Assembly: GCA_947650285.1 (NCBI GenBank)
Contig: CANTFL010000416.1
Location: 98,207 to 162,206 of the forward strand
From: Hyaloperonospora brassicae
Taxonomy: Eukaryota; Oomycota; Peronosporomycetes; Peronosporales; Peronosporaceae
Direction of reading: 5' to 3'
DNA length: 64,000 nucleotides
Shown: in pieces, positions 25,514 to 64,000 of the stretch
How positions within the stretch are numbered: the first letter of the stretch is position 1
How the letters are laid out: the number at the start of each line of letters is the position of its first letter
The notes under the pieces: model-generated
Seen by the model: only the letters and a program-made list of their open reading frames with translations
What the model was told of the DNA's origin: nothing
The model's database searches: none
Program-made: the position numbers and the translations under genes

Positions 25514-26669
25514 ATGTTCATGTTGGATGATGAAGAGACCTTTCACGCCACGCGTGAAGTGTTTACTTATTTGAGTGACATCGAATGGAGTGCGGTAGAA
25601 CGAATGAGTTCTACCGTAGGCGAGTTCGCCATTAGCGCCATGTTGGAGTCTCTAGACAGAGACCAACAACATGCCGCTATAGCCAAGTTCATCCAAAGTG
25701 AACTTGTCGCCGAAAGGGAGAAAAGTAGCCTTGCTTCACCAGCAAGGCTCTCAACAGGCCGAGCATTTGAGAGAACTTGGTGCTCAACAGACAGAGCTGT
25801 TGAGACAGCAGCAATTACATGCTTCTGTGGGCGGGACGGTACATGCGCGTCGTCCCGAGGTCATGAAAGTTGTCATCTCCAAGTACAGTGGAGTCCCGGA
25901 GGACTCCCTGTTACTGTGGCTTGTCGAACTCGACAGAGCCCTAAGGGCTCGTCGCGTCGAAGATGAGCAAATGAAACTTACATTTGCTCAGAACCACTTG
26001 GCAGGGCGTGCCAAAAATTGGTCCCTGGGGCTCGAGAGTAGCGACCCAAATGTGTTTAGGTCGCTAGATGACTTCAAGTCCCGGCTCAGACAAACGTTTG
26101 AGCCGCCACGGGCTGAGTTCAGGGCTCGTTCAGAGCTCCTGAAACTCAATCAGGGTAAGCGTGATGTGCACGCTTACGCACAACATATACGACTCCTCGC
26201 GAGTAGTATAACTGCTAACCCAGTCCATGAACACACGTTGATTACGGTGTTCATACAAGGGCTCGCAGAAGGGCCCGTCAGGAGCCCCCTGTTCCGCCTT
26301 GAGCTGAATAAGCTTGAAGAAGCGATATCAGCCGCGGAACAGGAAGACTTTAGCATGAGACAGGCTCATGCTAGCTCAAACTCTTATCGTCCACCAAGAC
26401 GACAAGAGATCGGGGGTCCAGAACCAATGGACCTCTGCTATGTTGAGAGCGAGAGACCCCGCTATTCAAACAACAAGCCATTGCAGAGGTGCAATCGCTG
26501 TCAGACGTTGGGGCACTTCGCACATGAGTGTAGTGCCCCACGCCCAGTACCAAGCAGTACTGAGCGAATCGAACGACCAGTTGCAAAGAAGGGCAATGGG
26601 AGTGGGTCCAGCGCTGTTGCGAAGCCGCAACAGCGAAACGGACCATCAAAAAATGGTCAGGGTCAGTAG
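25514..26669 (+). pseudogene. Gypsy gag, one frameshift
   Basis: Capsid/nucleocapsid polyprotein. The frame begins at ATG 25514 (MFMLDDEETFHATREVF), and the coding sense moves to the next frame near 25720-25730. It continues through a retrotransposon-gag domain (YSGVPEDSLLLWLVELDRA, GRAKNWSLGL) to a CCHC knuckle CNRCQTLGHFAHEC (about 26488-26530) and a basic tail. It stops at TAG 26667-26669. The short frameshift zone lies in the inverted-repeat-rich sequence. About 385 residues in all. Confidence 0.85.
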
Positions 26670-26729
26670 GGGCGGAGCGACGTACTGATCCAGCAACCTC
26701 AATAGAATTTGCAAATCTCTTGACGAAAG

Positions 26730-27089
26730 TTGCTCCAGATACGCAATCGTTGTGTGTTTCTGCACCCGGTGATGGGACTATCGCACATCACCTTGAAGTT
26801 GGAAGCGACAAATGATTTGTCGCTTCGTGCCCTAGTAGACTGTGGGGCATCGAACAACTTTGTTCGTCGCCAGTCACTAGAGGGTCGTAGGCTCAAGTTC
26901 GTTGAGCGCGACATTCCCCTCACGAGGATGACGGTGCGCCTTGCAACAGGCGCATCGTTAATTGTTGAGAAACGTGTAGTAGAAATCCACTACACGTTGG
27001 AGGGCGAACAGTACGATGATGACTTCATCGTACTGGATCTGGATGACAAATTTATTGTCATCCTGGGATTACCTCGGCTCAGAAAATAA
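26730..27089 (+). CDS. Gypsy aspartic protease region
   Basis: A retropepsin-like fold: the active site LVDCGASNNFV (about 26830-26862) has Cys where most retropepsins have Thr or Ser. The flap-like part RLATGASLIVEKRV and the second hydrophobic motif FIVILGLPRL follow. It is in the same frame as gag but separated from it by stops at 26667-26720, and it ends with TAA 27087-27089. The first in-frame ATG is 26772. It would act as part of a polyprotein in intact copies. Confidence 0.75.
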   Translation: MLQIRNRCVFLHPVMGLSHITLKLEATNDLSLRALVDCGASNNFVRRQSLEGRRLKFVERDIPLTRMTVRLATGASLIVEKRVVEIHYTLEGEQYDDDFIVLDLDDKFIVILGLPRLRK

Positions 27090-27618
27090 GAGCCAAGGGT
27101 GAGCTGGCAGCATCGATCCGTGAAGATGCCTGCCACTTGTTAATCAGATGGCCATCTGATGAACATCTTGGAGCGTCCACAAGCGTGTGGATGTTATGCG
27201 AGTGAGTGCGATGGCCTCACTTGCGGTACGGTCGTTAGCAAGACTGCAAAAGATCACAGTGTAGTTGATCACTACACTGTGGAGCAAGCTCCCGGCAGCT
27301 GTATAAAAGTACAGGCTGCGCCGAAGGTCCACCACTCGAATAAGTCGAGTGGACCGGGACATGGATGCATGCCTAGCGGGCAGCATCTTAGACAAAAGAA
27401 ACTTGTTGCCTCCCATGGGCAACATGGAAATCCTAGGTCGACTGGAGAGTCGACCGTAGAGGATCGGTTCCTGACTGTGGTTGCACAGCCACAGTCGGAA
27501 GACGTCGAGGGAATAAGTCCCCACGTGCTTGAGGAAGGAATTCCTCAAGAGTCACTTGCTGAGGGATCAGGCCTTCAGCAACCTGTGGAAGCAAGTTCCC
27601 AGGAAGTAAACCGAGACG
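27090..27618 (+). other. Protease-RT spacer of the gypsy element
   Basis: A frame at 27159-27635 is open but has no recognisable domain. In related elements this zone is a variable linker between protease and RT. It is crowded with inverted repeats (for example 27255-27281, 11-bp arms). Confidence 0.6.
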
Positions 27619-30402
27619 TTGAACGTCTTGGTTAATGACGGATCAAGCGTAGGCGCTTATACGCTTGATCTGATTGTGCCTCCGAAGTCAACTTCGGAGA
27701 TAACTCAGTTGCCAACGCTAGAACCGAAACGGTTCTTGCGTGATCTGCGTAGTGGCAAAGTCAAGCAGATCTGCATACTCGTCACAGAGGATGAGTTTGT
27801 GGCCGATATTCGGTCGGCGACAGTATTTTTTGAGAATGAACGGGTTCTCAGCAGCTCATCGATCGACGAAAGTGTCCTCGATGAGAAGACTCGGATTGAG
27901 CGATACACGTCTCAATCCTGGGAGTCACTTCAGGCAAATCCTTTGTACAAGGATTTGATCGAATTCAAGGATGTATTCCCTGAATCCGTACCTTGCGAGT
28001 TGCCTAAGGACAAAGGCACTCGACACGAGATCGAGCTCAAACCGGGCTCGAAGTACTGTGTCATGAAGCAGTGGCCACTGCCTCGTGAACAAGTACTAGC
28101 GACCGACAAGTTCTTTGCCGATCGCTTAGCAGCGGGCCATGTGAGGGAATCAACATCCCCTCACAGCTCTCCGACCTTCTGTGTGCGAAAGGCCACAGGA
28201 GGGTGGCGGATAGTGCACGCATTCAACAAGTTGAATGCTGCAACGGTACCGGCTCAGACGCCGATACCGAGGAAGGACGTAATCATAGATGGTATGTCAA
28301 AGAGTACCATCTTTTCGTCCATGGATCTGATGGATGGATTCTATCAGATCCTCATGCGTGAACGGGACATCCCGTATACGGCAGTGAGCACCCCCAGCGG
28401 TCTGCTGTGGGAGTGGCTAGTGATGCCACAGGGGCTGAGTAATGCCCCTGCAACATTCAACAGATGTGTTACGAATCTGTTGAGACCGGTGCGAGACTTC
28501 GCACCGAGTTACTTCGACGATGTGTTCGTCCATAGCCGGGCTATGGACGGAAAGACGGACGTTGAAGTTCACAGAACTCACGTTCGTCAGGTTCTTCAAC
28601 TTATGCGCAAGCATAAGTTGTACGCCAACCTCAAGAAGTGTATATTCGCGGCTAGCGAAATACCACTTCTTGGGTGCATCGTGGGTAAACACGGCGTACG
28701 CCCTGATCCCGAAAAGATCAAGGCGATCACCGACTGGCCAGTGCCAGTCGATGTCAAGGGACTAAGGAAGCTCCTTGGACTAGCGGCGTACTTGCACAAG
28801 TACTCGCGCAACTACGCCGAGATGACTGTTCATCTTTCTTGTTTACTCAAGAAAAATGTCAAGTGGTCATGGAACGCTGAGTGCCAGCGTTCCTTTGAGG
28901 GTATCAAGCAAAGCTTGATGCAATCGCCGATCTTGGCGATTGCAGATCAGGACAGACCATTTCATGTGGTCTGTGACGCCAGCGATTTTGCAATCGGCTG
29001 TGCGTTAATGCAGTTCGACGCAGATGGCGCGGAGCGCGTCATCTGTTATCAGTCGCGTCAGCTGCAAGCAGCTGAGCGTAATTACCCAGTGCATGACAAG
29101 GAACTCCTTGCCATGAAGTATGCACTGGCTAAGTTTCGCGTCTATCTATTGGGAGATAGACCGTTCATCGTGTATACGGACCATGCGTCATTACGCACGG
29201 CCGTAAACAGCCCACACCTCTCGCAAAGAATGGCGAGGTGGCTGTCTTTCTTCGCGGAGTATAACTTCTCCGTGGAGTATAAACCAGGACGACTAAACGT
29301 CGTCGCTGATGCGCTTTCGCGCCGGCCCGATTTCGAGCCGGACGCACAAATCAACAGTGAGGATAAGCCCACTGTTGCGACACTGTCAGTCAGTGTCCCG
29401 TCGTCAAGTTTACTTGACGACGTACGAAAGGCATACGCGGAAGATAAGGATCTTCTGCGATTGATGGATCATCTGGTGAATCCATCCAGTAAATCCATGA
29501 GGGATTTACCGGCTTTGTACCGATCCTCATCGGATCGGTATAGTACACGCAACGGATTGCTGTACTATACAGCTGTTGCCGACGACACGCCTCGTGTCGT
29601 CGTACCCGCTCATCATGATTTGCGATTACGCATCATGTATGAGTGTCACGATGCCCCAACAGGTGGCCATCGTGGTAGAGAAAAGACTTACCTCACGGTA
29701 AGTCGTGACTTTTACTGGCCACGCCAGTATCAGTTTGTACGCAAGTACATACGTGCTTGCGAGGTTTGTCAACGGGTGAAGCCTAGTCCTTCATCCCGTG
29801 CGCCATTGCAGCCTCTGCCTGTTCCGACAGAGTGCTGGCAGTCCGTTTCAATGGACTTCGTCTTCGGTTTTCCCGAAGACGCTCACAAGAATAATGGTAT
29901 TCTTGTGTTTGTTGACCGGTTCAGCAAGATGGTCCATCTTGCTGCTGTACCCGAGTCGATCAAGGCTCAAGGTTGTGCTCGTGTCTTTCTCGACACGGTC
30001 TTTAGACTCCACGGGTTACCCCGTGAACTCGTATCCGACCGTGACCCTCGGTTCACGGCGGCATTTTGGCAAACCGTGTTCCGTTCTCTTGGAACACGAT
30101 TGAAGATGTCTACTTCTGACCATCCCGAAACAGATGGTCAGACGGAACGTGCGAACCGTGTCCTCGAAGAGATCCTTCGAGGATATGTCCACTCGTTTTC
30201 GAGTTGGAGCGAATTCCTACCAATGGTGGAATTCGCCATCAATAATTCGGTGCATGCTTCAACCCAGCACACACCGTTTTACGTGAATGGCTTACGCCAT
30301 CCACGTGTGCCCGCCCTTCTAGAGTGTGACTCTTGGATAAGGGGGAGGGACTCGCTCGAGCAAAAACCGTTTTGGCTCTTGCTCATCACGTGTCGACGCT
30401 AA
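27619..30402 (+). CDS. Gypsy reverse transcriptase, RNase H and integrase core
   Basis: The RT has WPLPREQVLATDKF, TGGWRIVHAFNKLN, SSMDLMDGFYQI, MPQGLSNAPATFNR and the catalytic YFDDVFVHS (about 28510-28536). RNase H has VVCDASDFAIGCALMQ, DKELLAMKYAL and TDHASL. The integrase zinc finger is H..H..C..C in HDAPTGGHRGREKTYL...CEVCQ (about 29645-29775), and the core D,D,E lies in MDFVFGFP, VSDRDPRF and TDGQTERANRVLEE. There is no convincing own ATG; the frame differs from gag/protease by one base. At about 30333-30400 the coding sense passes into the next frame, so the integrase tail is cut off. Confidence 0.92.
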   Translation: MNVLVNDGSSVGAYTLDLIVPPKSTSEITQLPTLEPKRFLRDLRSGKVKQICILVTEDEFVADIRSATVFFENERVLSSSSIDESVLDEKTRIERYTSQSWESLQANPLYKDLIEFKDVFPESVPCELPKDKGTRHEIELKPGSKYCVMKQWPLPREQVLATDKFFADRLAAGHVRESTSPHSSPTFCVRKATGGWRIVHAFNKLNAATVPAQTPIPRKDVIIDGMSKSTIFSSMDLMDGFYQILMRERDIPYTAVSTPSGLLWEWLVMPQGLSNAPATFNRCVTNLLRPVRDFAPSYFDDVFVHSRAMDGKTDVEVHRTHVRQVLQLMRKHKLYANLKKCIFAASEIPLLGCIVGKHGVRPDPEKIKAITDWPVPVDVKGLRKLLGLAAYLHKYSRNYAEMTVHLSCLLKKNVKWSWNAECQRSFEGIKQSLMQSPILAIADQDRPFHVVCDASDFAIGCALMQFDADGAERVICYQSRQLQAAERNYPVHDKELLAMKYALAKFRVYLLGDRPFIVYTDHASLRTAVNSPHLSQRMARWLSFFAEYNFSVEYKPGRLNVVADALSRRPDFEPDAQINSEDKPTVATLSVSVPSSSLLDDVRKAYAEDKDLLRLMDHLVNPSSKSMRDLPALYRSSSDRYSTRNGLLYYTAVADDTPRVVVPAHHDLRLRIMYECHDAPTGGHRGREKTYLTVSRDFYWPRQYQFVRKYIRACEVCQRVKPSPSSRAPLQPLPVPTECWQSVSMDFVFGFPEDAHKNNGILVFVDRFSKMVHLAAVPESIKAQGCARVFLDTVFRLHGLPRELVSDRDPRFTAAFWQTVFRSLGTRLKMSTSDHPETDGQTERANRVLEEILRGYVHSFSSWSEFLPMVEFAINNSVHASTQHTPFYVNGLRHPRVPALLECDSWIRGRDSLEQKPFWLLLITCRR

Positions 30403-31565
30403 CGTCGTCACGTATGATGCCGATGTCGATCAATGTCGACATCGATGAAGCAGATCACCGCAATAATAGCGATGACGCTATTATTGACTCGGATGATGAT
30501 GACGATGCTGGTATATTCAGCATCGTCAACGATTATGCCAGCGAGGAAGAAGACAACCTCGCTGAAGAAGAGAACAATCTCTTAGCAGTGCGCACGAAGC
30601 GCACTGAAAGACAAAACAAAGAGTCAGCAGAGAACTTCCTGCTGACTCGAGAAGCGGTAGTCCGTTTCGTTCAGGACTCCATCGCAAATGCGGTGGACCG
30701 TCAGAAACGGAACGCAGACAAGAATGGAAGAGCAAATGTTCTTTCATTTAAGGTTAACGACCTAGTACTACTGTCTACGGTAAACCTACCTGGACATGCA
30801 GTCACTAGTGTCGGCAGTAGTAAACTACTGCCGAAGTACATTGGGCCATTTCGAGTGTTGCATCGCAAGGGCAATGCATACACACTCGAATTGCCACGTA
30901 GGATGCGCACGCATCCTACGTTTTACGTGGGGAGGCTCAGGCCGTACTGTCAGTACGAGCCTTCTTCTTCCGATGAAGATAGCCCCCACGTTCAAGAACA
31001 TCCATCAAGTTCTTGCGTTCGCGCTCCAGACGATCCGTCTGGTCGCGCAGATATGATACCTCGGAACTCAACCGAGATATCTCCCCGCGAGCTGTCGCCA
31101 GCTCGCCGAAAAGGGAGCGGACATCCCGCTCGACCTGAAGCTGCGCCGTGGCATAATCGGCGCGATCCCTCGCCCGATCAGCCTCGTGATCCTTGCGGTT
31201 CTTCCGCACGGTATCAGTCAAAGCGTAGCGCCGGTCGCGCTCGTGCTTCAAGTCATCGCGCAATTCATCGATTGCGCGATCCACCTCGTAAGGGTCGAGA
31301 TGGTGAACCGAATCATCTGGAGGAGGTCTTTCCTCCTCCACCACATCCTTTGGTGGATGCTCACGGTGATCAACGCTTTCTAGTGGAGCGTATCTTGAAC
31401 CACCGTGACGATTCAGGATCAAGGACGAGCTACCTCGTCCAGTGGCGGGGGTATCCACCCTCTTGGAACAGCTGGGAGCCCCGCTCTCAGCTGTTGATGG
31501 ACGTTGAAGGTCTCGTCCGCCAGTATGACGAGACTCATCCGATGAGTCCTCGGGCCCATCGGTAA
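30333..31565 (+). CDS. Gypsy integrase C-terminus with chromodomain, frameshifted from pol
   Basis: Continuation of pol in another frame. An acidic stretch comes first, then the integrase tail ([49 protein letters not shown]). A Ser/Pro/Arg-rich linker of about 130 residues (30960-31350) follows, then a C-terminal chromodomain ([29 protein letters not shown]; about 31378-31530). Chromodomains of this kind steer integration to methylated-histone chromatin. The last 629 nt overlap, on the opposite strand, the ORF at 30937-32535. The linker lies opposite that ORF's coiled coil. Confidence 0.85.
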
Positions 31566-33778: not shown

Positions 33779-36700
33779 AACTAAGCGTGTTGCGGGTGCG
33801 GCCGATCAAGCTGCACCTGCTGTGATCGTCGGTGGTTCCAACAAGGCTATCGACGACCACCTGGAAGAGAAATCGGCAGCGCCCAGAGGGGCGATGGACC
33901 AAGTGCTAGCCATGCTCGGGGACCTATCCGAACGGATGAATCGGATGGAGGTCTCCGTATAACAAGCAAGGTGGCAAGGACCGGCAGGGGTCACCAGAGT
34001 CAGTTTTTGGCTCGGCCCTGGGAGTAGGAGCGGGAATGACCCTTCAGGCTTTGGAGCACACCCCTCCTCCCAAAAGGTCCCCGTATGTGTCGCCAGCGAC
34101 AAATTTCGGGGCAAGACATCACATGCAAGGATATGGTGACGAACGACCAGTGAACCCGGTCGTGGCGGACGTCAACATGGGTCCGACACCAGGAACAGCA
34201 CAACCTAGGCAAGAGATGCCTGCGGGCTATTACCCTGGAGTGGGTATGCCGATCGGGATGTATCTACACCCTGGGCAGCAAGCTGCAGGGATGGCGGACG
34301 CACGTCATCGGAAACTCGCGATTCAACCCTTTGACGGCAAGGAACTCTACCATGGTCTAGGTAGCGGATTCCTTGAATGGGGAAAGGAATTTGTCCGCCA
34401 AATTGGTTTCGCGGAGCGCGCGTGCGGGTTTGGATGGCCGAAGGACATCAAGGTTGATGTCCTTGGACAACACCTGGCAGGCAAGGCGCAGACGTACTAC
34501 CGTCGGCAGGTCGAGACTTGGTGGCGCGAAAGCCAAACCTTGGAGTATTCAATGCAACGATTGCTGCAGACCTTTAGCACCAAGATATCGCCGGCGCAAA
34601 GCATGAAGCTCTTCACGGCACCGAAGGCATCGCACAGAAGCTGGACAGACCATTTTTTGTACCTCACAGCTGTCAGCGATGCCTGCGGCGGTGCAGACAG
34701 CTTGGTGCTGGACAACATTGTACACTATGCCGATCCGCAGATGCGCACGACAATGTTGTCCAGGTTAAACATTCACCGAGTGGACCATCTACGTCAAGCT
34801 GAGGATTTGGCGCAATTTGCGCAGTCTACTGAGGTGGACACGCACGCCAAGAACCTCGGACGGGACGTCGTCAACGTCGTGGAAGCTTTAAAAGATGTGA
34901 AGGCGAAGCTCAAACACAAGAGCCAAGAGCGAAGTGACAATCGATCATGTCACCTTTGCGGAGAAGTAGGACATATCAGGGTGATGTGTCCTCAGCAAAG
35001 GAAGAAAAAGAACCCGAGATCGAACTTCGTCTTCACAATTGACGGCAGCACGGGTATACATGAGAGTCAGTGGATACTCGACACTAGATCTAGCCGTCAT
35101 TTGGTTAGCGATCTCAGCCTCCTCATCGACTCGACTCCTAGCCAAAGGGAATGTCTGACCGCAGCCTCCGATGGAAGTGTGCTGCGGATCACCCATCAAG
35201 GCATTGTTAAGATTAAAGTCCTCGCACTTGGAGTGATGAATTCGGTGACGCTCCTCGATGTGCAATACGCGGAAAACCTCGAGAGGAACATACTCTCCTA
35301 TGGAAAGCTTGAAGCTAAGGGTTGCGTACTGGAGTACCGGGGAGGGAAGCGCGTGTTGACCTCAGGAATTGGTGGTGTCCCAGTAATGGATGTGGAGCGG
35401 TGCAACAACGTACTGGTCATTGCAGTGAAACACCTTAGGAAGGGCATTATTGACACACCACAAGAGGGGACGATGGCGGTTCTCAATTCACCTGAATATG
35501 AATCCGACTCGGATGTTCAGTGTGGTACCTTGATGCAATTTCATCGCCGACTGGGGCACCTATGTGTTGAAACCTATTGTCAAGATGGCCAAAGACCCAG
35601 GCTCGGGCATAAGGCTGACGGATACGAGACGTGCGAAGTAGCATGGCTTGTGCTCAAGGAAAACAGGAGCAAAGTGACACAGTCAAGGAAGGATACGGGA
35701 GCCAACTCCCCTATCGACGTGATAGGAGGAGTGATATGCTCCGACCTCAAAGGTCCGATGACCCCGCGTGATCGCTTGGGGAATCGCTTTCTGGTCAACT
35801 TCATCGACCACAGATCAAATTATTGTCGCATTTTTTTTGGCCAAGACCAAGGATGCTGCCGCCCTCAAGTTCAAGCACTTCTTGGTGAGCTTCGAGCGTG
35901 AGTTTAACTGCAAGGTCCACGTACTGCGCACGGACGGGGGAGGTGAATACAAGACCCTGGATGGATTTTGCTTGACAACTGGTGTGATCCCGTCAAGTGA
36001 GCGAGGCTCGAAACCAAGCCAGTAATGGAAAGGCTGAGCGGATGCATCGAACCATCATGAATATGGTTCGAAGCATGCTGTTCGCTTCAAACTTACCTAA
36101 GACATTCTGGGGTGACGCTGCCGAGTACGCGTCATACATACTGAATCGAAGTAGGACCAAGGCCAACCTACGAGGAGCGTCTCCAATGGAGATTCTTACG
36201 AACAAGGTGCCTGCGCTTAACGACATCGTCGCCTTCGGATCGACATGCACGGTGCACGTCGACGCCAAGAATAAATCACTCGGAGAACGTGGTAAAGCAG
36301 GCATTATCATTGAAAAGGGTGCTGAGACGAAGGGATACATGGTGTACATCCCCAAGGACAAGGTAATTGCAGTGAGGCAACACGTTCGGAACATCGAAGC
36401 TCCAAAGGATGTTCGAGACGCGGAACTCGGACCCGACCTGAACGGAGCCGACCGTCAGGAGGAGTCACGTTTGGACTGTCGGACGGACACGATACGACAA
36501 CGAAACACCAAGAAACGACTTGCGAAGAATCACAAAGGACGACGGTCGGTTTGGACGAAGGATCAACATCGTACAAGGGCCACGATCAAGCGAGAGATTA
36601 AAGAAACCTCAACTGAACAACCTGTTGACCGGCACGACGTCGTAAATGCGGTCATTGTACAATACCCGAAGCACTATGGCGAAGCCATCAACAGTGACCA

Positions 36701-38282
36701 CCGTGAACAGTGGCAAGTCGCTATGAACGAAGAGCTGGATGCTTTGTAGTCAAACGATGTTTGGACGGTTGTAGTGCCGCCTAAGGGTGAACATGTCCTG
36801 CACAACAAGTGGGTCTACAAGTCGAAGACCGACGCAAACGGGGACATCGAGCGATACAAGGCTCGCCTGGTCGTCTGCGGGAACGAACAAGTGTTCGGAG
36901 TAGACTATACTCTCACGTTCGCAGCGGTCATGGATCTGGGCACGGTAAAGCTGATCCTGGTACTCTCGAGACGCTGGAACGTGCCAGCTCGTCATGGTGA
37001 TGTACCGAATGCGTACGTCAAGGCTGAAAAGGAGGAGCACCTGGACATTTACATGAAGGTGCCGAAGGGGATGGCAGTGAAGGAAAAAGAGATGAAGGAC
37101 CTGAATGTGAAGACCCCAAACGACCTAGCATTGTTGCTGAAAAAATCGCTGTACGGACTTAAACAAGCTGGACGACTATGGAGCAAATTACTTGACTCCA
37201 AGCTACGAGAAAGTGGGTATCAGCAATGTACCACGGACATGTGCTTGTATTTCAAGTACAAGGGCAAGATATGCACGGTGGTTGGTGTTAACGTGGACGA
37301 CCTGTTGGTCACAGGCACTAGACAAAGTGCTGTCGACGAGTTTTTCAAGGACATGGCCTCTCTATCCATTAAGGATCTGGGAATTGTGAACAAATTCCTT
37401 GGACTACGGATTGAACTTGACGGTCCAAGTGGCTACGTCCTGGACCAAGAACCGACAATCGATTTGCTGTTGAGAGACTTCGGTATGGAGTCGTCGAACG
37501 GAGTACGCACACCTATCGGAGACGAGTGCAACATGGACGCCGAAGACGACGCTGCGTACTTACCAGCACGAGGAGCGAAAGGCGACCCGAGTATGAAGTC
37601 ATTTCAGTCACTGGTGGGTAGTCTGCTATGGATAGCGAGATGCACGCGTCCAGACATCTGCTTTGCCGTGCACAAGGCGACAAGGAGAACGCACAAGCCG
37701 ACTCTCCGATATTGGAAGACCGCGAAGCGCATCTTGCGATATCTAAAGATGTCCAAGAGTTTGAAGCTGCACTTGGACGGTGATGGGCTTACATCAGAAG
37801 ATATTCGGGTCGAATGCTGGAGCGACGCTGACTTCGCTGCGGATAAGGCCGATCGTAAGTCAATCTCGGGATGTGTACTGACTGTGAATGGTGCTGTGAT
37901 TCTTTTGTTGTGCAAGAAGCAATCAGGCGTATCGTTGAGCACGATGGAAGCCGAGTTTATCTCTGCCTCACAAGCTGGCCGGGAGTTGCTTGGCACGAAG
38001 GAACTGCTATGCGAGCTGAAGCTACAAGTGCGTGAGCCGATGCCGATGTGGATCGACAATCAAGCGGCGATCAAACATCTCGAATAAGAGAAAAGTACCT
38101 CGAGCGCCAAGCACGTAGACATACGTTTCAAGTTCATTTGTCATCACACCCAGGAAGGGACTGTGGTGCCTCGATTCGTGCGTTCAGAGGACATGGTGGC
38201 CGACATACTGACGAAGTCGTTGCCGGCACTCAGGATGGAAGAGTTGAGAGCCATGCTCAAGTTGAAGGCCACAACAGGCTAA
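33771..38282 (+). pseudogene. Copia gag-pol, broken by frameshifts and stops
   Basis: The parts are in the usual copia order but scattered over frames. The N-terminal gag piece 33771-33962 ends in a stop. Gag to integrase start is at 34036-35901, with knuckle CHLCGEVGHIRVMC and a protease site reading DTRSS, in which the essential Gly is Arg. The integrase D,D,E pieces are in CSDLKGPM, RTDGGGEY and NGKAERMHRT in three different frames (35740-36060). RT and RNase H occupy 35997-38282, with NVDDLLVTG in place of YVDD, SDADFAADKADRKSISG and STMEAEF. In this last frame there are stops at 36747-36749 and 38085-38087; the coding sense continues past both to TAA 38280-38282. Dead copy. Confidence 0.9.
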
Positions 38283-53520: not shown

Positions 53521-54622
53521 GACCATTGCTGTGAACAGGCTAGAACGACCCGTACTTAACTCATAAGTAAGCCTGAAGAAGCCTCAAGCCCAAGTATTAG
53601 GTATTAATCAAATTTAACTCGGTTTATATTTTGTCTTTTTCGATCCCAAGTACAAATGAATTGCTTGGACTCATGGGATCCGCTCGATCTACGTGTCGAT
53701 ACCTTACTGGCTAATATTTTGTCTAACCCCATTCATCCCGCTAGAAAAAACGTGCTACATCCGCTGATTCACATAAAGACTCTTCTAATTAAGTAACGTG
53801 TAAACTTAATCATAACTACTTATGTAAGGGCATGGTCCAATACAACGGCCGAACCAAGCCCAGTATAGTGTACATCCCGTATCTTAGATTTCTCTACGAG
53901 CGATCGCGACCAAATCCACCCATCGCTCGTAGCATATCTACATGCTTTCGGAGAGTGCTCGATCCAAAGACAGTGCTATTCGTTTCGAAATGAACTGGAG
54001 CAGGCTCCTCGTTGGCCGCATATGCATCAGAGGAAACACATTTGTGAGTATTTACACACTTAATTTCATCAGAGCGGTGAGAACGTTTGACACCTATCGT
54101 CGCGGAGTTTGGATCTTGCAATAAATTTTCTGAAATGGTTCAAGAAGTGCAAATCCAACTGTTGTCAGGGAAGAACCTTGAACTATCATCAAAGGCGTAT
54201 TTGCGAGTAAGACCGTGTTGGTTGTATGCGCATCATACAAGAATCGATGAGTCTAAATTTTCGTCGTCCATTTTAACCACAACATTCGATACTTACCCGC
54301 AAATTTAAGATCAGACGCCGTGATATTTATTTGTTTGATTGTACATCAGTTTTTTTCCTATTGTCAAGTTCCGATATTCCGAATGATCAGTACACATTTC
54401 AAGGTACAGTGAACGAATGTATGCATAACACCGCTAAATATCGGCACAACATGAGCAAGTTGGTATCTGCGTAGCGAATCGTAATCGAGCAGAAGTTCCA
54501 CATACAGCTGTGTGAGTCTATCTCACCTTCAGAAGAAAAGAGCCAGACTCAGGAGTCAAGTATTCCGTTCGTACGGGTGTTTATCTATGTATAGGGCATA
54601 GGTGTTCTTAATTGATCAACTC
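53521..54622. other. A/T-rich spacer and U1 upstream region
   Basis: No gene supported. The last 100 nt would contain the snRNA promoter if the U1 copy at 54623 is expressed; I do not know a reliable oomycete snRNA promoter consensus to test this. Confidence 0.5.
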
Positions 54623-54783
54623 ATACTTACCTGACTGGTGCTTGACGCTGCTCAATGAGGGCGTTGACATGAGCCGGAGCAGGCCCCTTGCACTCCGGTG
54701 CTGTAAGGGTTCAGGAATGCTCTTTTGAGTAATTCCACAGTAGAATTTTTGTCAGCGGGGGTGAGCGCGTGCGCCGCCCCCAC
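54623..54783 (+). ncRNA. U1 spliceosomal snRNA gene
   Basis: About 161 nt with U1 landmarks in the right order and spacing. The 5' end ATACTTACCTG contains the 9-nt 5'-splice-site-pairing segment (54625-54633). The SL1 stem is TTGACGC/GCGTTGA (54642-54648 / 54661-54667). The SL2 loop TTGCACTCC (54688-54696) is the U1A-binding loop, closed by AGCA/TGCT. SL3 is GGAATGCTC-TTTT-GAGTAATTCC (54714-54736). The Sm site AATTTTTG is at 54744-54751, and a terminal G/C-rich SL4 lies at about 54755-54783. Human U1 is 164 nt. The SL1 loop (GCTCAATGAG) differs from the usual GATCANGAAG, so a divergent or variant copy is possible. Nt 32 onward is repeated at 61964 after the retrotransposon. Confidence 0.85.
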
Positions 54784-55532
54784 CTCAACATCAAACAATA
54801 CACACGCTTGGTTTGCACCTTTCTTCGTGTTCTTTTATTCTACTCAACTGTGTCTGCTGCGTGTACTCTGCTGCGCCATGAACATCTTCTCGCTCTTCGC
54901 GCGCGACCGCGCCATGTCCAGCGGTTCGCTGCCGCCAGCATCGCCGGTGAGCAGCACGGCCTCGAGCGCGGTGACGGCGCGAGACGACGACGCCCTGAGC
55001 GTTGCGAGCGAATTCTTCAGTGACGTCGATGACGACGACAACGACGACTGCGCCTCGGACGACGCTGTTGCTGGTGCTGCTGACATATGGTGTGACGACG
55101 ACAACTCCGCTACTGACACCGCCACCGCTTCCGACGAGGGCGCTGCTCGTGTCGAGACCACCGGGTCAGCAAATCCAACAGCTGGTGCCGACTTGCACCG
55201 GCTGTGCACGATGGGCAGCACCAATCTTCCCGCTGGCGCCGGTCTGACTGACCCCATGCACACCGATGGGATCGGCAACGACGTTGCCCAAGGTGTTACC
55301 GGCGTCGACGATACTGTTCACGCCGTTCACGACGACACCTTTCAAGACGATCAAGATATAATGTTTCAAGATGGTATTCACGACGATGGTATCGATACCT
55401 GTCCCGATTTCGACGACTCGATTTTCGACCCGACGCTTCTCGTCCCGGCCACCGACGACTGTCCCGTTTTTGACACTGCCGTCTGCGCGACTGACCTTCA
55501 CGTCCCAGATGCGTTGCCAGGACATGTCCAAG

Positions 55533-56347
55533 TTTTTTTTTTTTTTTTTTTTTTTTTTTGTTGTTCAGATGGTCTATTTGCACGGTGTTAACTATGCGCC
55601 TTAACCTCTGCAGTTTGCTAAGCCAGAAGTGAGCGCCGGGAGACCCGGAGGCTAATCGTGGCTGGTCCCTATAAAGAGACTCTCCGAGGAGCTCACCCAT
55701 CTGCGATGGTGGCCCCCTTCAGCCGCTTGCGCCCCCCCGACGTGGAGTGCGATCACCGAAGTGACTGCGTGGTGGAGAACGCCAACCCGCCTATCTCTCT
55801 CCGAGGAGCTCACCCATCTGCGATGGTGGCCCCCTTCAGCCGCTTGCGCGGCCCCCCGACGTGGAGTGCGATCACCGAAGTGACTGCGTGGCGTGGAGAA
55901 CGCCAACCCGCCGTATCTCTCTCCGAGGAGCTCACCCATCTGCGATGGTGGCCCCCTTCAGCCGCTTGCGCGCCCCCGACGTGGAGTGCGATCACCGAAG
56001 TGACTGCGTGGCGTGGAGAACGCCAACCCGCCGTATCTCTCCCCGAGGAGCTCACCCATCTGCGATGGTGGCCCCCTGCAGCCGCTTACGCGGCCCCCGG
56101 ACGTGGAGTGTGCGCCGCCGCAGCGGCGACACGTGGCGCGGGGTACGCCTCCAGTCCATAAAACACCCCTGCTTGGCCGCTTACGCGACCCGTCGGTCCC
56201 CTACGCCCACACCCGCGACTGCGAGTGCAGCGCGCCCGCGTCAGATCTTCGACCCCGTCGGCTCCCCTAGGGGAGGATTCCCTCCGACTGACTGCCCCGA
56301 AGGGAAAAAGCCTGGCTTGAGCTGAACCGTGAAAATTTGGGAATGGG
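55533..56347 (-). mobile_element. Poly(A)-tailed retroposon inserted antisense in the non-LTR ORF
   Basis: It is flanked by the 13-bp direct repeat GGACATGTCCAAG at 55520-55532 and 56348-56360, a target-site duplication. On the + strand it starts with 27 Ts (55533-55559), that is, a poly(A) tail on the minus strand. The 815-bp body contains a tandem array (55680-56110). It carries no RT, so it is a SINE-like or processed-transcript insertion moved by some non-LTR machinery. Removing it would leave the host ORF in frame, which fixes its boundaries. The source gene is not recognised. Confidence 0.85.
55680..56110. repeat. Four tandem ~120-bp units within the retroposon
   Basis: The word CCGAGGAGCTCACCCATCTG recurs at 55684, 55801, 55923 and 56043 (spacings 117, 122 and 120). 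The units are nearly identical with small indels, and the last is partial. They carry no evident coding sense, and the frames across them shift with the indels. Confidence 0.92.
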
Positions 56348-58072
56348 GGACATGTCCAAGCTACCAGCAACAACGACCAAGCTTCTCATGCTCAAGATGC
56401 CGCTAACGGCCCCGTTCGAGACCACGTTTCTGCCGCTCGCGTTGCTACAAGCACCCGTCTCGCGCTTGTGCCCGATTCGACGAGCGAGCCTCCCGGCTCA
56501 CGTCAACCGGTTGACACTACCGTCGCCGCCACGTCTCTCGCCACGGACGTTCCCGCCGCCCCGTCACTAGCAACGTTATCAGTGTTCGCCCACAATGCGG
56601 CGGTGTTCAGGTGCATTGCTTGCAACTTTGCAGCACCGCAGCTCGCCGAGCTACGTGCTCACCGGCACCGGCAGCACCGCGGGACCGTCTTCACGGATGT
56701 TTTCCACAGTGGATGCACCTGTGCCATGTCGTTTGCCCAACGGGCTGCGGCTACTCGGCACAGCCTCCACTGTGGGACAGCCCAGACTGTACGTTGTGAC
56801 GCAACTTCAACGCCGCAACTGCAGCAGCAACAACACACAGCAGACACACCGGCGGCTGGAGGAGGGCCCACGGTGACACGCCGTAATCCTCCTCCAGACT
56901 TAGCCACTCTACCCACTAGTTCCTCTCGGCCGTGGCTGGCCGCTCGCTCTCGTCTTCGTGTCTCTTTGCTCCGGACAGACACTCAAGACTCCAGTGGGAC
57001 TTCAACGCAGCATGTGACAGTGCTTACAGGATGCAAGCGTCGCCGTCTGAACCCTTCGCTCGTACCGGATCAAGACCAAGATGTCGACATGGACCACCTC
57101 GGTGCTGCGCCAGTTGATGATTTTCTCCGCCGTATGATGGCATACGCTCCTGACACTACTTCAGCTTCGCCGAAGCATACACACTTTCAGCAACCGTTGA
57201 TTGCACCTTCCTCGGCGGTTCCTGTGATCTGCACACTTCCAAGACATGATGAAGAAAATCAAGATGTTGCTACTGGAGTTACTGAAGACCTTGACGACCA
57301 CAAAGATGATGATTTTGACGACAACAACGATGACTTTGATATAATTACTGATGACAACGATGAAAACGATGGCAACGATGATGAACACGTAGACAATGGA
57401 AACGATGATGATGATGACGGCGCCACCGATACTGCTGCTGCTGATGATGTTACTCCGAGTGAGGTTACTCTACCACAAGACCCCGATGTCGCGATGCCAG
57501 ATCCAGACCCTGAGTCCGCTGCATGGACGCTGTTTTTCGATGGAGCTTTTCGCCGCCGTTCGAGACAACACGGTGCAGGTGCAGGAGCTGGTGCCACACT
57601 ATTTCAAGGCACAGTGAACAAGTGGAACGTTGCTTGCTTCCTGCCCAGTTCAACGCACACCAACAATACTGCTGAGTATATTGCTCCTATTAAAGGTCTC
57701 AGTGGGGATCTACATCACGGTGTGAGCAGTCTCACGGTCAAGGGTGACAGTGCATTGATTCTGGAGCAAGTGCGTGGACGATACTCCTGCAACAACGATC
57801 AACTACGGCGTTCGCGCAACAAGGCTCGCCGACTTCTCCACCGCTTCGACCACTACGAGTTGATTCACGTTGACAGGATGGAGAACCAGGCTGCAGACAG
57901 ATTGGCGAACCGGGCTCTGGACATTCAACGGACCAAGACGGAATGCTCTGCCCATGGCATCGATGGCGTCGGTTACAGCACCCATGCTATCGCCACTGGA
58001 TCCGCGATTGCAGCTGGGACCTCCAGAAGACCTACTGTTTCGGCTACTGGACCAGTAGATATGGACATTTAG

Positions 58073-61000
58073 AGTGGAGATGAAGCTGTTGAAGACAATC
58101 TGGAAGATGACGATGCTGCTGCTGATGTCATCCGCCGGGACAGAGGCCGGACGTTTCCAGTTCTTCCAGTTACTGCTGATAGCGTTCCAGTCCGCCAGTC
58201 CAGATTGAAGTTGCGATCCAAGTTGAGTGAAGATGAGCTTGAAGCAGCTCGACTGGCGGTGAAGCAGGTTGCTGATGACTTTGCGGACAAGCTCACAGAT
58301 GCCGACGATTGGGAAACAGCGGAAGGGTACCTCGCAGCGCTGACTCCGTCATTATACGCTGCTCTTTTGCTATTTTCGCAGCGACCACGACCTCCAGGTC
58401 ATCCACGGCGACAAGAGTTGAGTTCAGGTCGCCAGCGAGGACGTCAAAGACCACCTCCAACACCTGGCAACCAGCAACTGAACGAAGCTCTGGACCATTT
58501 GGACAACATTCAGCATGGATCTCAGCCATCCCAGCCTGCTATTCGGAAGGCGCGACGACGTGCGGGACGAATTCGGTCAGCCATGAAGCGCACTCTGTTG
58601 CGGAAGAAGTTTCGGGTTCATGAGAAGGCGTGCATGCAGCAAGTTCTGTCGGAAGCGTCACCGGATCCCGAAGTCACTGGTGGAGAAGCTGCTCCCACGC
58701 GCTGTCCGATTGCAAGAGCAGCTGTTCATGACTACTTCCAGGGTGTTAACACTCCTCAGCGTGATTTTAATTTCGATGACAGGGCTGGTGCTACATTTCG
58801 AAAGCTTCTGTCTGCTCTTCCGCCAGCCTCTGCAGCTATGGATGCTCTTACGATGGACATCACGCCAGATGATGTGGAGGTTGCTGTTCACAAATCCCAT
58901 GCACACTCCAGCCCGGGTATGGATGGTGTCGGTCATGACATCTTCAAGAACTATTTACCCGAGTTGTTATCGACACTACATGCTGCTTATGGTGTATGCT
59001 GGAAGCATGGAAAGGTACCTGCTGTCTGGAAAGTAGGATCGGTGCAGCTGATTTACAAGAAAGGTGACCCCAGTGAACCAAGTAACTGGAGACCGATCTG
59101 CCTTCAAGCGTGCATCTACAAGCTCTACTCGGACATGTTGGCGAGGCGACTAAAGCGCTGGCTGGAAGCAAATGGCCGTTTGACTGACTCGCAGAAAGGG
59201 TTTCGAAGTGTCAACGGTACCGCCGAGCACAATTTCGTGAGCATGGCTGTGATCGACCAGACCAAGAGACGCCCTCGTCCTCTCCACATGGTCTGGTATG
59301 ACATCAAGAACGCATTTGGGTCGGTGCCACCGGAGCTGATTTGGCGTGTGTTGCTGACTACCAGTGCCAGCGTCTCGTTTGTGGATCGTCTCAAGAATAT
59401 CTACGATGGTGCGTCGTTTACGGTGGCCAACACGGCAGATGGTGCGACGGACCCGATCCAGCTTCGGATGGGTGTTTTTCAAGGTTGTCCCCTGTCGCCC
59501 TACTTGTTCTTGGTTGGCATCATGCCCCTCGTCCGTGCGTTGCAAGAGCTTGCTCCGGAGATTGGAGTGCCCGTGACGGCTGACCGTAAGGTTTCGGTGA
59601 CAGCATATGCAGATGACTTGAAGACATTCAGCTCATCCACCGTCGGTATCAAGAAGGCACACTCGGTCGTTGTCCAGTTTCTTCGGTGGTCTACCATGCA
59701 ATCCAATGCTTCCAAGTGTGCCTCGCTCTCGGTCAAGACCGACACACATGGACATTTACGTGACGATCAAGTGGAGCTTACACTAGACGGTGGCATCATT
59801 CCGTCGCTCAAGATTTCGGAAGGGTACACGTACCTGGGTATCGGTGATGGCTTCAACCACGCCAAACACCGTGGCTCGATGGGACCTGTTTTGCAAGACA
59901 TGAAGCGCATGATGGCACCGATTTTTCGTTCATCACTGGATCCGTGGCAAAAGATGAAGGCGATCAAGACGTATGTTTTCCCGAAAGCAGATTATCTGCT
60001 GCGACACGTACGAGCCTACAAGACCCAGCTGGACAGTGTGGACTCAGCATTGGCACGTGGTTTAAGCCATCTTCTGAAGCTCAACCAGTCCAGTACGACT
60101 GCAATGTTTCACGCTCCAGTTGCCGCCGGTGGTTTGGGTTTCACTCCACTTGTCGACCTTAGAGCTGTGCTACAGATAAGTCATGCCTGGCAGATGCTGC
60201 ACTCCTCCGATGTGCTTATTCGTGAGATTGCTCAAGAGCAAGTGTGGCAGGCAATCCAGAAGCGATTCACCATGGACCCGGACCATTGGCGTGGACGTAT
60301 ACCTACTGCCATCCAGCTCTTTTTGAATGGTGATCTCGATTCTTCTCCATTTGCCCGTCAGAAGCGCAAGTCGGGGGATATTGGTTCGTTATGGGTGGAT
60401 GTCAAGAATCATCTTGCGACCCGTGGATTGAAGTTGACGACGGAAACAGTGCTCACGGAAGCTGGAACTGAGGTGGAAATGATGTTGCAGCTCAAGTTAC
60501 CACATCGATCGCAACCACTACCGCACAGCGACATCACCAGGCAGCTTCGCCATCATTTAAAACTGACGGAGCTTGAGCGGTGGAAAGGATTGAGTGCCCA
60601 GAGTTCCGTTGTGCGAGCTATTGGTGGAGTTGGAAGCTGTTTTCTTTCTCGTGGTGGTGGAATGAGCGACGCAGAATTTCGTTTTGCTTTGCAGGCTCGG
60701 GTTGATTTGGTACCCACTCGATCGGTTCTTCGACGTTGGAATGAGCGTGGGGGTGCAACCTGTCGCCACCCCAGATGCCATCACGATGAAACGCTCCCAC
60801 ATGTTCTTCAGCACTGCCCAGGCAATTCTCGGGCCATTGATGGTCGTCACGACCGTGTTCTTGGGATAATCAAGAAAGCGGTTGAGCCCATTGTTTTCAA
60901 GTCCTCCAGTCGTCTGACGGCTTGCTTTGACACATACGTGGAGGGTCTACCGGGTCGTCAACTGCGTCCAGATATCCAGATTTTTGATGCGGCTTCGAGG

Positions 61001-61777
61001 ACCGCCTACATTTGTGATCTCGCTATTGCCTTTGAAGCTCAGAAGACGGACGACCCTGCTACAGGCAACATGCGCGTTCGTCATGCCGAGAAGTTGGTCA
61101 AGTACCAGCGTGCAAAGGAGTTTCTGGAGACGATGGGATGGCGCGTTCAAGTTTCAGCTTTGGTGTACGGATCGTTGGGATCAGTGTTGCCCTCCAACTC
61201 CAAGGTGTTGACGGAGCAGCTACGTCTGACCAAGATGCATGCCAATCAACTCAATCGTCGGATTTCGGTGGCATGTGTTCAGGCAAGCTACAAGATATGG
61301 AGGCTACATTCGGGAGAGTTGAATTCAGGAGATACGTCAAGAAACTCGAGGCCAACTGTGGCTCCCACGGCTACATCGACCTCGCCGAGCACCAGGACCT
61401 ATGACCCATGTGCGCGACCGGTGGAGACACCTACTTCTGTGCCATCTACATCGAGGACTTCTACTTCAACCAGCCAACCACGTCGGGCATCTACGCGGTG
61501 GGGTCCGCTACGTTCTCAGCCGCTCACGACTCCTGTCCCTCCACGCCGGACCAGCACACGATGGGGACCTCGCCGAGGTCACGTGACTTCATCTGCTGCT
61601 CCGGACACCCAGTCAAGGTCAAGACAGCACCCACCACATCAACACTTGACTCGGACCTCGCATTCTTCCGGACAGCCACGCTCAAGGTCGACTCACCAGC
61701 CTAGGCGACCCTCGCGCCCACAGCACCAAGGTCATCCTCAGGTACGTCGTGCCGTCGCCACTGCCACCAGGAACTAG
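58073..61777 (+). CDS. Reverse transcriptase and restriction-like endonuclease of the non-LTR element
   Basis: The frame continues from 54878-58072 after the TAG; the first ATG in the ORF is at about 58205. RT motifs are HSSPGMDGVGHDIFK, VGSVQLIYKKGDPSEPSNWR, LHMVWYDIKNAFGS, GVFQGCPLSPYLFLVGI and the catalytic YADD in AYADDLKTFSSS (about 59603-59635). C-terminal to this are a zinc finger (CRHPRCHHDETLPHVLQHC, about 60758-60815) and a restriction-like endonuclease core (RPDIQIFD, CDLAIAFE, then KYQRAKEF; about 60964-61122). The tail is Ser/Thr/Arg-rich. It nicks its target and primes reverse transcription there; elements with this endonuclease are mostly site-specific. It stops at TAG 61775-61777. 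Confidence 0.92.
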   Translation, partial: SGDEAVEDNLEDDDAAADVIRRDRGRTFPVLPVTADSVPVRQSRLKLRSKLSEDELEAARLAVKQVADDFADKLTDADDWETAEGYLAALTPSLYAALLLFSQRPRPPGHPRRQELSSGRQRGRQRPPPTPGNQQLNEALDHLDNIQHGSQPSQPAIRKARRRAGRIRSAMKRTLLRKKFRVHEKACMQQVLSEASPDPEVTGGEAAPTRCPIARAAVHDYFQGVNTPQRDFNFDDRAGATFRKLLSALPPASAAMDALTMDITPDDVEVAVHKSHAHSSPGMDGVGHDIFKNYLPELLSTLHAAYGVCWKHGKVPAVWKVGSVQLIYKKGDPSEPSNWRPICLQACIYKLYSDMLARRLKRWLEANGRLTDSQKGFRSVNGTAEHNFVSMAVIDQTKRRPRPLHMVWYDIKNAFGSVPPELIWRVLLTTSASVSFVDRLKNIYDGASFTVANTADGATDPIQLRMGVFQGCPLSPYLFLVGIMPLVRALQELAPEIGVPVTADRKVSVTAYADDLKTFSSSTVGIKKAHSVVVQFLRWSTMQSNASKCASLSVKTDTHGHLRDDQVELTLDGGIIPSLKISEGYTYLGIGDGFNHAKHRGSMGPVLQDMKRMMAPIFRSSLDPWQKMKAIKTYVFPKADYLLRHVRAYKTQLDSVDSALARGLSHLLKLNQSSTTAMFHAPVAAGGLGFTPLVDLRAVLQISHAWQMLHSSDVLIREIAQEQVWQAIQKRFTMDPDHWRGRIPTAIQLFLNGDLDSSPFARQKRKSGDIGSLWVDVKNHLATRGLKLTTETVLTEAGTEVEMMLQLKLPHRSQPLPHSDITRQLRHHLKLTELERWKGLSAQSSVVRAIGGVGSCFLSRGGGMSDAEFRFALQARVDLVPTRSVLRRWNERGGATCRHPRCHHDETLPHVLQHCPGNSRAIDGRHDRVLGIIKKAVEPIVFKSSSRLTACFDTYVEGLPGRQLRPDIQIFDAASRTAYICDLAIAFEAQKTDDPATGNMRVRHAEKLVKYQRAKEFLETMGWRVQVSALVYGSLGSVLPSNSKVLTEQLRLTKMHANQLNRRISVACVQASYKIWRLHSGELNSGDTSRNSRPTVAPTATSTSPSTRTYDPCARPVETPTSVPSTSRTSTSTSQPRRASTRWGPLRSQPLTTPVPPRRTSTRWGPRRGHVTSSAAPDTQSRSRQHPPHQHLTRTSHSSGQPRSRSTHQPRRPSRPQHQGHPQVRRAVATATRN

Positions 61778-61963
61778 TGGTTCATGGACCTGTTTCGGTC
61801 CCATCGGCACTCTCCAGCAAGGACACCGCCGTTCCAAGCCCAATGTAGCCATATAGCCTATAGGTGTAGCACTACATTCGGACGTTTTCCGTCCTGTCTA
61901 CCCCCGCTTGCAGCTTTTGCTTCCCACGGGTGACTACTAATTGGCACAAAATACACGTATTAA

Positions 61964-62093
61964 AATGAGGGCGTTGACATGAGCCGGAGCAGGCCCCTTG
62001 CACTCCGGTGCTGTAAGGGTTCAGGAATGCTCTTTTGAGTAATTCCACAGTAGAATTTTTGTCAGCGGGGGTGAGCGCGTGCGCCGCCCCCAC
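61964..62093 (+). ncRNA. U1 snRNA fragment (nt ~32 to the end) between the two retrotransposon copies
   Basis: Identical to 54654-54783: it starts in the middle of the SL1 loop and includes SL2, SL3, the Sm site and SL4, but lacks the 5'-splice-site-pairing end. It cannot be a working U1. It is either a long target-site duplication or a part of the element's own 5' end. Confidence 0.85.
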
Positions 62094-62187
62094 CTCAACA
62101 TCAAACAATACACACGCCTGGTTTGCACCTTTCTTCGTGTTCTTTTATTCTACTCAACTGTGTCTGCTGCGTGTACTCTGCTGCGCC

Positions 62188-64000
62188 ATGGACATCTTCT
62201 CGCTGTTCGCGCGTGGCGTGCCATGTATAGTGGGTCGCAGCCGCCGTCGCCGGCGAGCTGCACGCCTTCGAACGAGGTGACGACGTGGGACGACGATGCC
62301 GTGAGCGTTTCGAGCGGCACTTCAGCGACGACGGCGACGCGGACGACTCCGCGAGTGCTGCGACGGACGAGGGTGTTGCTGCTGCTGATGACGACGAGGA
62401 CATCGCCGTGGACGCCACCGCCGCCGCTACCGACGAGGACGACGCTCGTGTCGGTGCTGCTAGGGATGCAAATCCAACAGCTGGTGCCGCGTGGGAACGA
62501 CTGCTCGCGACTGCCGCGACGGGTCTGGTCGATGGTGCCAGTCTCACTGAACCGACGGACAACGGCGGGACCACCCTTCAAGACATCGACATTTCTGCTC
62601 AAGGTGTTGCCTTTCATGGCGCTATGGATCAAGCTGCTCATGATGACTGTTTTCAAGATGTTGGAGATGTTCTATTTGAAGACACCGCCGATGACGATGC
62701 TGCTGCTACGTGCCCCGACTTCGACGACTCGATCTTCGACGCTGTGCATCCCGCCATGGAGACCAACTACTGCCCCGTTTTTGTCCAAGACGTCCGTCCG
62801 GTCGACCTCCCCGCTCAGTATACCTGCACCTCATACCGTTCAAGCCGGCCCCGCTCCCGACGAAGATGCTGCCCCCGACGCCGCCACTACCGACCCGCTC
62901 GCCCCCACGCCCGGTTGGACGATCGAGTCCCAAGACTCACGTTCACCGGCTGACTATCCGGATATCGACGATGGTGCAACGCCTGCCCCGTCTCTGGCCA
63001 CGCTATCCATCTTCCCGCACAACGCAGCGACTTTTTGCTGCGTCACGTGCGACTTTGTTGCACCGCAGCTTGCGGAGCTGCGTGCGCACCGAGACCGGCG
63101 GCATCTCGGGATCCCGTTCATGGACATTTTTCACAGTGGATGCGCCTGTGCCATGTCGTTTGTCAAACGGGCATCGGCTACTAGGCACACCCTCTACTGT
63201 GGGGCAGCCTCGTAAGCAATTTACCCTACACAATCGACGCCGAAATTGCAAAAGGAGACCACACCAGATTCTCCAGCGGGTGAAGGAGAATTCACGGTAA
63301 CACGCCGTGACCATCCTGCAGACTCCGCCACTCCAAGTACTAGTTCCTTTCGGCCGTGGCTGGCCGCTACTCTCGTCGTCGTCCTTTCTTTCTCCGCAGG
63401 AAGTTCAAGCCCAAGCCCCAGCTCACGACCCGGTACTGGCATCGTCGCTGTCCGGTGCCAAGCGTCGACGGTCAAACTCCTCGTTGCTGGTGGATCAAGA
63501 TGAAGACGTGAACATGGACCAGAACGAGGATACTCCCGTTGATGTTTTCCTCCGTCGGATGGTGGCTTACGCCCCCGACACGAGCAACACTTCGACGACG
63601 CCCCCACAAGATATTCGCCCGGCTACTTCGCCATCTACACCGACTGTTGTGTCGTCCGAACTCACAAGGCACGATGTCAGTCACAACGCGAGGGTGGGCT
63701 ACGGATGATGAAGACGAAGTTGATGACCCCAAGGATGACGTTTTTGATGAACACTTTGATAAACATTTTGATGACACTTTTGATGACAATTCTGAGTGAC
63801 ACTTTTGATGACACTTTTTCTGGAGATGATGGACACGATGACACTGCTACTGAACACGATAACAAGGCTGGTACCACCGATGATGATGGAGGTGACAATG
63901 CTGCTGCTAGTACTGTTGCTCCGGGTCCATTTTCTCTTTAGCCTACGACCATGATTTTACGATGAATGCCCAAGACCCTGAGCCCACTTCCTGGACGCTG
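62188..64000 (+). pseudogene. N-terminal ORF of copy 2, several frameshifts
   Basis: ATG 62188 (MDIFSLFARG) aligns with 54878 of copy 1. The coding sense then moves through frames: an acidic part from about 62285 in a second frame (ANPTAGAAWERL, TCPDFDDSIFD). A third frame from about 62830 to 63215 carries the zinc finger CVTCDFVAPQLAELRAHRDR. Further shifts follow. The acidic Asp-rich stretch before RNase H is at 63700-63940. Dead copy. Confidence 0.8.

Follow-up and report, generated by a model that had tools for sequence, protein, structure and literature searches.

Oomycete members of the Utopia retrotransposons carry, in the published account of the family (PMC4640811), one to three N-terminal zinc fingers, an RNase H domain upstream of the reverse transcriptase (RT) in which an R replaces the H, and, at the C-terminus, a CCHC zinc knuckle and a restriction-like endonuclease (RLE). 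They target a small nuclear RNA (snRNA) gene and form arrays, with truncated snRNA copies behind the 3′ ends and intact snRNA genes before the elements. The same account gives U2, entered between nucleotides (nt) 38 and 39, as the Utopia target across three supergroups, and finds the persistence of several families in about ten U2 genes surprising. Here, we describe a relative of these elements that sits in U1. It occupies positions 54784-61963 of a 64-kb stretch of Hyaloperonospora brassicae DNA (the window: bases 98207-162206 of contig C213, whose 162,206 bp end at the 3′ edge of the window). We consider it probable that this element belongs to the oomycete Utopia clade, that it nicks U1 in the loop of stem-loop 1 (SL1)—all nine 3′ ends found for its family join U1 at nt 32—and that it leaves a complete U1 gene on its 5′ side. 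Head-to-tail arrays of different element families stand behind a U1 gene.

A first-pass annotation of the window had read, in this order, a U1-like gene, a retrotransposon, U1 from about nt 32 to its end, and a second copy of the element. We recovered the same succession; the second copy is diverged and, because the window ends with the contig, merely cut off. The features are:

54570-54578 and 54586-54593, + strand: promoter-like motif CGTACGGGT and TATA-like stretch upstream of U1 (by eye)
54623-54783, + strand: complete U1 snRNA gene (the head); RF00003 at 87.3 bits against a cut-off of 69.5, model positions 1-166 of 166, E 2.7e-20 (cmscan)
54784-61963, + strand: element copy 1, lying between U1 nt 161 and U1 nt 32; its 7180 bp include a nested insertion
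54784-54877, + strand: leader (5′ untranslated), from U1 nt 161 to the first ATG of the element; 9 genome matches, all directly behind U1
55533-56347, no strand assigned: nested insertion of 815 bp that contains a T-run and has a 13-bp direct repeat on either side; the copy on contig C29 is without it
56603-56689, + strand: C2H2-type zinc-finger motif, aligned with the proteins P0001 and P0021; Pfam C2H2 match under its cut-off
57536-57916, + strand: RNase H domain PF13456, E 1.2e-15; catalytic set D-E-D-R-D read in the alignment
59057-59761, + strand: reverse transcriptase PF00078 with YADD, E 6.6e-25 and alignment
60761-60817, + strand: CCHC motif, by alignment
60965-61114, + strand: RLE motifs RPD..D..K, aligned with oomycete relatives and one other; no Pfam match
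61778-61963, + strand: 3′ untranslated end of copy 1 with terminal A's; 7 genome matches, all adjoining U1 nt 32
61964-62093, + strand: U1 nt 32-161, the tail behind copy 1; 100% identity to the head over 130 nt
62094-64000, + strand: 5′ portion of the diverged second element (beta), recognised by direct repeats and a frame like open reading frame 1 (ORF1); ends with the contig

The U1 model matches 54623-54783 end to end, and by sequence and structure the segment is a predicted U1 gene. In the 64-kb window, U1 is the sole family that reaches its cut-off, and the gene folds better than 198 of 200 shuffled versions (z -2.74). The upstream motif at 54570-54593 is a candidate snRNA promoter (proximal sequence element, PSE). 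By eye, a similar CGTAYGGGT and TATA, at a like distance, precede the U1 head on C29 and the U2 heads of this genome, with a weaker version before the U5 and U4 genes; at the corresponding place, U1 tails have element sequence.

How is U1 distributed in the rest of the genome? In the assembly (100.6 Mb, 898 contigs), a DNA search with the 161-nt gene, in which all 11 candidates were scored, returned two complete genes, one in the window and one on C29, and nine truncated ones, every one of which starts at nt 32 (one on C213, four on C215, one on C29 and three on C255). No fragment of U1 nt 1-31 separated from its 3′ part occurs among these 11 matches. With the U1 covariance model (best 41 of 1688 candidates scored), the C213 and C29 genes and no others exceed the cut-off, and six of the nine tails fall below it. 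The two complete genes are identical across all 161 nt; their upstream flanks share 92% identity over 200 bp, with the similarity fading after about 300-400 bp, so that we regard them as two separate loci. Both continue directly into an element. Either selection, with U1 at both heads still functional, or conversion may have kept them identical. The tail behind copy 1 is part of a 250-nt direct repeat with 99% identity.

On the 3′ side the arrangement is uniform, and the U1 linkage is thus not peculiar to this locus: each of the nine U1 tails has an element 3′ end directly in front. A query of the last 268 bases (61700-61967, four of them U1) gave seven genome matches, all adjoining U1 nt 32; at the two remaining tails (C215:44728 and C255:153101) the 3′ end is diverged yet alignable. 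The leader search likewise returned nine sites, each directly behind U1, with C215:44728 and C255:153101 matched by alignment only. An ORF1-like frame follows C215:44728, and C255:153101 is 82-94% similar to it. Such a constant 3′ joint at one target site is characteristic of non-long-terminal-repeat (non-LTR) retrotransposons of the RLE type. The joint does lie within the SL1 loop, as first described; its supposed exactness gives way to an ambiguity of 2-4 nt, the element ending in A's and U1 continuing AATGAGG. We reject the suggestion that a terminal TATTAA is a relic of an older U2 target, because the element end is variable: these six letters precede the joint in four of nine tails, and the others have CATTAA, TAAGAA, TATAAA, ATTAAA or AATAAA.

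Copy 1 has the domain set described for oomycete Utopia (RNase H, RT, CCHC and endonuclease; PMC4640811). One frame (56468-58072) holds the C2H2-type motif and the RNase H domain, with its D-E-D-R-D set, upstream of the RT; a second (58205-61777) holds RT, CCHC and the RPD..D..K motifs, the C-terminal zinc knuckle and endonuclease being recognised from aligned motifs. The copy is damaged, by the nested 815-bp insertion and by a stop separating the two frames; this stop is missing from a copy on C215. The nested insertion also contains four repeats of roughly 120 nt.

An RT tree (IQ-TREE, LG+C20) agrees with the domain order. Its 65 rows comprise 62 of the best 120 of 177 proteins and seven rows of this genome, less four over-long matches; 23 are outgroup rows, whose 'animal' label is our own assignment. 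The three U1-linked rows (window, C215 and C255) form one group (support 100/100) inside a 42-row oomycete clade (100/100) that also holds the U2-flanked elements of the same genome; the placement with Utopia is by the rows of this clade, as the Repbase Utopia consensus was not among the compared sequences. Four U2-linked rows fall into two other groups, both of which also contain Phytophthora and Peronospora sequences. Union of these two groups against the U1 rows has weak support (70/56), and the U1 group has no supported sister. The U2 elements differ from the U1 element in protein, at about 45% identity, as well as in RT group. Outside this genome, the nearest sequences by tree path are two Globisporangium splendens proteins; by identity, among the best 120 of 177, they are G. 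splendens P0001 and P0002 (54% each) and Pythium brassicae P0003 (51%), which, compared as proteins, share the domain order and a similar N-terminus. Searches of viral contigs gave no relatives. A rearranged Utopia-like piece with inverted parts and about 45% identity to copy 1 occurs on C163 (L069); this 11.7-kb contig has no U1 or U2 segment of note beside it.

The proposed link to Utopia is therefore borne out by the RNase H upstream of the RT, the endonuclease motifs and the RT group, and we think it very likely that a U1-specific lineage exists within the oomycete Utopia clade. The label of a U1-targeting branch of Utopia holds as far as the clade and the U1 target go. We do not file the lineage as Utopia proper, because the U2 nt 38/39 site of that family is not its target: it enters at U1 nt 31/32. 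Since U2 is the Utopia target in three supergroups (PMC4640811), U1 would most simply be a derived target. In the literature searched, from which Repbase and most subscription journals lay outside, we found no retrotransposon in U1 genes, only the fish DNA transposon Dada-U1 (PMC8869645, PMC3706591), which likewise inserts in U1 genes but, as described there, makes 6-7-bp duplications with unrelated machinery; the Utopia paper, for its date, also states Dada as the sole user of U1 genes (PMC4640811).

The U2-linked elements of the same genome serve as an internal control. Of the RT pieces, at least 52 in number, all those listed fall on nine contigs, of which four carry U1 segments and five carry U2 segments, the C163 piece standing outside this list; such counts of element copies are lower bounds (best 39 of 810 and best 81 of 565 candidates scored). 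The U2 model gave 27 matches, five full-length and 22 truncated (best 46 of 1947 candidates scored). All 22 truncated copies start at nt 39 behind a common 3′-end sequence, with L027 ambiguous by two letters; this is the published Utopia site (PMC4640811). Four of the five full-length genes continue directly into an element leader, and the layout of the arrays is that of the U1 arrays. The fifth, L022 (C501:309923-310092), carries several substitutions, including one at the Utopia site; about 60 nt behind it resemble one Utopia leader type before other sequence follows, which may be a relic or a hint of the native U2 3′ flank. Between the U1 leader AACATCAAACAATACA and the U2 type-A leader AACATCGATCAATACA, 14 of 16 letters are shared. 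We rejected the idea that the leader is a general snRNA 3′-end signal, as by eye nothing comparable follows three U5 genes and one U4 gene within 120 nt.

Comparison of the U2 segments on the two sides of 18 U2 elements, covering 26 of the 27 U2 segments (C501 with L022 left out), revealed a 3-4-nt stretch in the loop of stem-loop IV (SL IV) that differs in 13 of the 18 elements; the rest of U2 from nt 39 to about 159 is identical on both sides in 16 of the 18. The two loops of an element agree no more often than in shuffled data (0.49), but overall differences between neighbouring U2 segments are fewer than there (0.7% of shuffles as low), chiefly owing to one locus marker. The loop differences look like, and possibly are, the trace of an imprecise 5′ join inside the loop, the element then providing the 3′ arm of the hairpin. 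No such scar is seen in U1 copies. Across the U2 arrays (L018-L044, on C571, C598, C359, C828 and C888), the 3-4 nt between TTCACC and CCCCC occur in six forms. The U2 heads on two contigs stand as inverted pairs (L018/L019 on C571 and L020/L021 on C598) whose upstream flanks are identical for 1.3 kb or more. On C350, two U5 genes (L061/L062) separated by 3 kb likewise form an inverted pair, their flanks identical over the 120 nt compared; these pairs are either recent inverted duplications or assembly palindromes.

What happens on the 5′ side of the U1 elements? Going outward along C215, the tails show 99, 100, 95 and 85% identity to U1; the elements preceding the first three have 96, 99 and 59-78% protein identity to copy 1, and none was listed before the fourth among the best 39 of 810 candidates. 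Such an order is roughly what one would expect if new copies entered at the head. By eye, the first C215 element is interrupted by sequence of long terminal repeat (LTR) type; the second element of C29 is interrupted too, its 3′ end missing past about 50588. Comparing the alpha and beta elements of C213 and C29, counted from U1 nt 32, we found 12 sites that follow the locus, at positions 132-229, 142 sites that follow the element family, at position 228 or beyond, and two sites of a third pattern. With C215 replacing C213, positions 132-179 hold nine of the 11 locus-type sites, and the first family-type site comes at 242. The leader and start codon thus go with the locus and the remainder with the element family. 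A plain 130-bp duplication predicts family-type leaders and so fits poorly; homology joining to the resident U1 and leader, or later conversion between neighbours, fits better. Of the two origins first proposed for the U1 part, a target duplication of about 130 bp or a captured U1 3′ part, the former in its plain form therefore loses ground and the latter stays viable.

How might a U1 gene outlast such insertions? Because the two U1 genes fused to elements do not differ at any of their 161 nt, an insertion likely leaves U1 whole, with new copies stacking behind it. The endonuclease would nick the bottom strand at U1 nt 31/32, and the 3′ end of the element RNA would be reverse-transcribed at this nick. 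If that RNA were transcribed from the U1 promoter, it would bear U1 sequence at its 5′ end, and the end of the finished complementary DNA (cDNA) could be joined by homology to the same U1 sequence in the target, plus the leader if the site were already occupied. The head gene would then be whole again while the old U1 nt 32-161 stayed as the tail; the head would remain a valid target, and later copies would enter behind it, pushing older ones outward. For the 5′ joint, we prefer this homology joining of RNA-borne U1 to its alternatives, a very long target duplication or later conversion. R2, an element of 28S rDNA, offers a parallel in the published account (PMC3774820): it is co-transcribed with its target RNA, and the 5′ joint is believed to be guided by target sequence that this RNA carries. 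Where R2 RNAs keep 28S sequence, the cDNA is thought to anneal to the target and 5′ joints are uniform; where the RNAs end at the element, variable 5′ joints are reported. R2 differs in that its insertion interrupts the 28S gene, and no ribozyme like that of hepatitis delta virus (HDV) was found in the first 750 nt of the U1 element (54600-55530 searched, E up to 5, with only U1 and two weak other matches). The boldest version of the proposal, which we advance tentatively and think less likely than not, is a restorative retrotransposition: the element would carry the 3′ part of its target gene at its 5′ end as a homology arm, each insertion would rebuild U1 and reopen the site, and the U2 sisters would do alike via the 3′ arm of the U2 terminal hairpin.

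Several observations weigh against insertion by homology into a gene that stays whole. Conversion between neighbours after insertion predicts the same locus-wise pattern, and in the C215-C29 comparison two of the 11 locus-type sites lie far downstream (359 and 724). Neither an empty U1 site nor an array end bearing a native U1 flank was found, and blastn detected no further U1 segment in C255:159000-168100, C29:48000-50700 or C29:52100-59900. The fused state is seen for both assembled complete U1 genes, and free U1 genes may exist unassembled. Among the U2 elements, leader types do not track the locus, the SL IV loops differ between sides as given above, and the order with young copies at the head is missing in some arrays (L037).

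A different course of events would have the second strand cut far downstream, at or beyond the 3′ end of U1, so that fill-in duplicates U1 from nt 32 and the element RNA needs no U1 sequence. Its precedent is R9 of rotifers, an RLE element of the R2 clade for which 126-bp duplications of the RNA gene entered are described (PMC6895275, PMC5035012); R9 targets 28S rRNA and is likened here by description. The U1 segments flanking copy 1 are identical over 130 nt (those flanking the C29 element differ at two), and 130 nt separate the nick from the modelled RNA end in U1 (32-161) as well as in U2 (39-168). Duplication of 130 bp, however, predicts that the leader follows the family, yet it follows the locus up to position 229, and a duplication of 229 bp would leave the element without a start codon of its own; the unequal U2 loops speak against it as well. 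We therefore judge such a duplication unlikely, if the strongest of the rivals. Less likely again is a course in which the insertion disrupts the snRNA gene or removes part of it, as has been proposed for oomycete Utopia in U2, and recombination or gene conversion among array copies restores an intact U1 later. Deletion, recombination and conversion are considered for U2 by the Utopia authors (PMC4640811), and the locus-wise leaders and mosaic U2 elements show that sequence has been exchanged between copies; both heads are intact, however, so that each locus would need to have been repaired in full, and the genome matches hold no stranded 5′ fragment of U1. Very improbable, finally, is a lineage without target specificity, in which a single chance landing in U1 was amplified by unequal exchange and segmental duplication. 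Most copies do lie in arrays on four contigs, and C213 and C29 have the alpha-beta order in common, but upstream similarity between the two heads extends no further than 300-400 bp, nt 32 is the joint for families at 59-78% protein identity as well as for a more diverged pair, and the sister elements behave alike in U2. Weighing these, we retain the reading that insertion likely leaves a complete U1 gene.

Elsewhere in the window, reading frames at 309-4424, 25698-31565 and 34036-38087 look LTR-retrotransposon-like by eye. A neighbouring host gene encodes phosphoribosylformylglycinamidine synthase, whose best full-length match is a Phytophthora protein (89%), followed by P. kernoviae (85%) and Peronosclerospora sorghi (83%), which marks the host as a Phytophthora-like oomycete.

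An insertion that leaves the snRNA gene whole would, if true, let the element use an essential gene repeatedly as its landing site and yet keep that gene intact. It would also answer the surprise over how several families persist in so few U2 genes, and the presence of U1 and U2 lineages in one genome makes gene-sparing insertion testable. If related endonuclease-RT proteins have switched from U2 to U1, this is also of interest for site choice by such enzymes. Should restorative retrotransposition prove true, the U1 supply of the host would depend on rebuilt genes, both detected complete U1 genes being element-fused.

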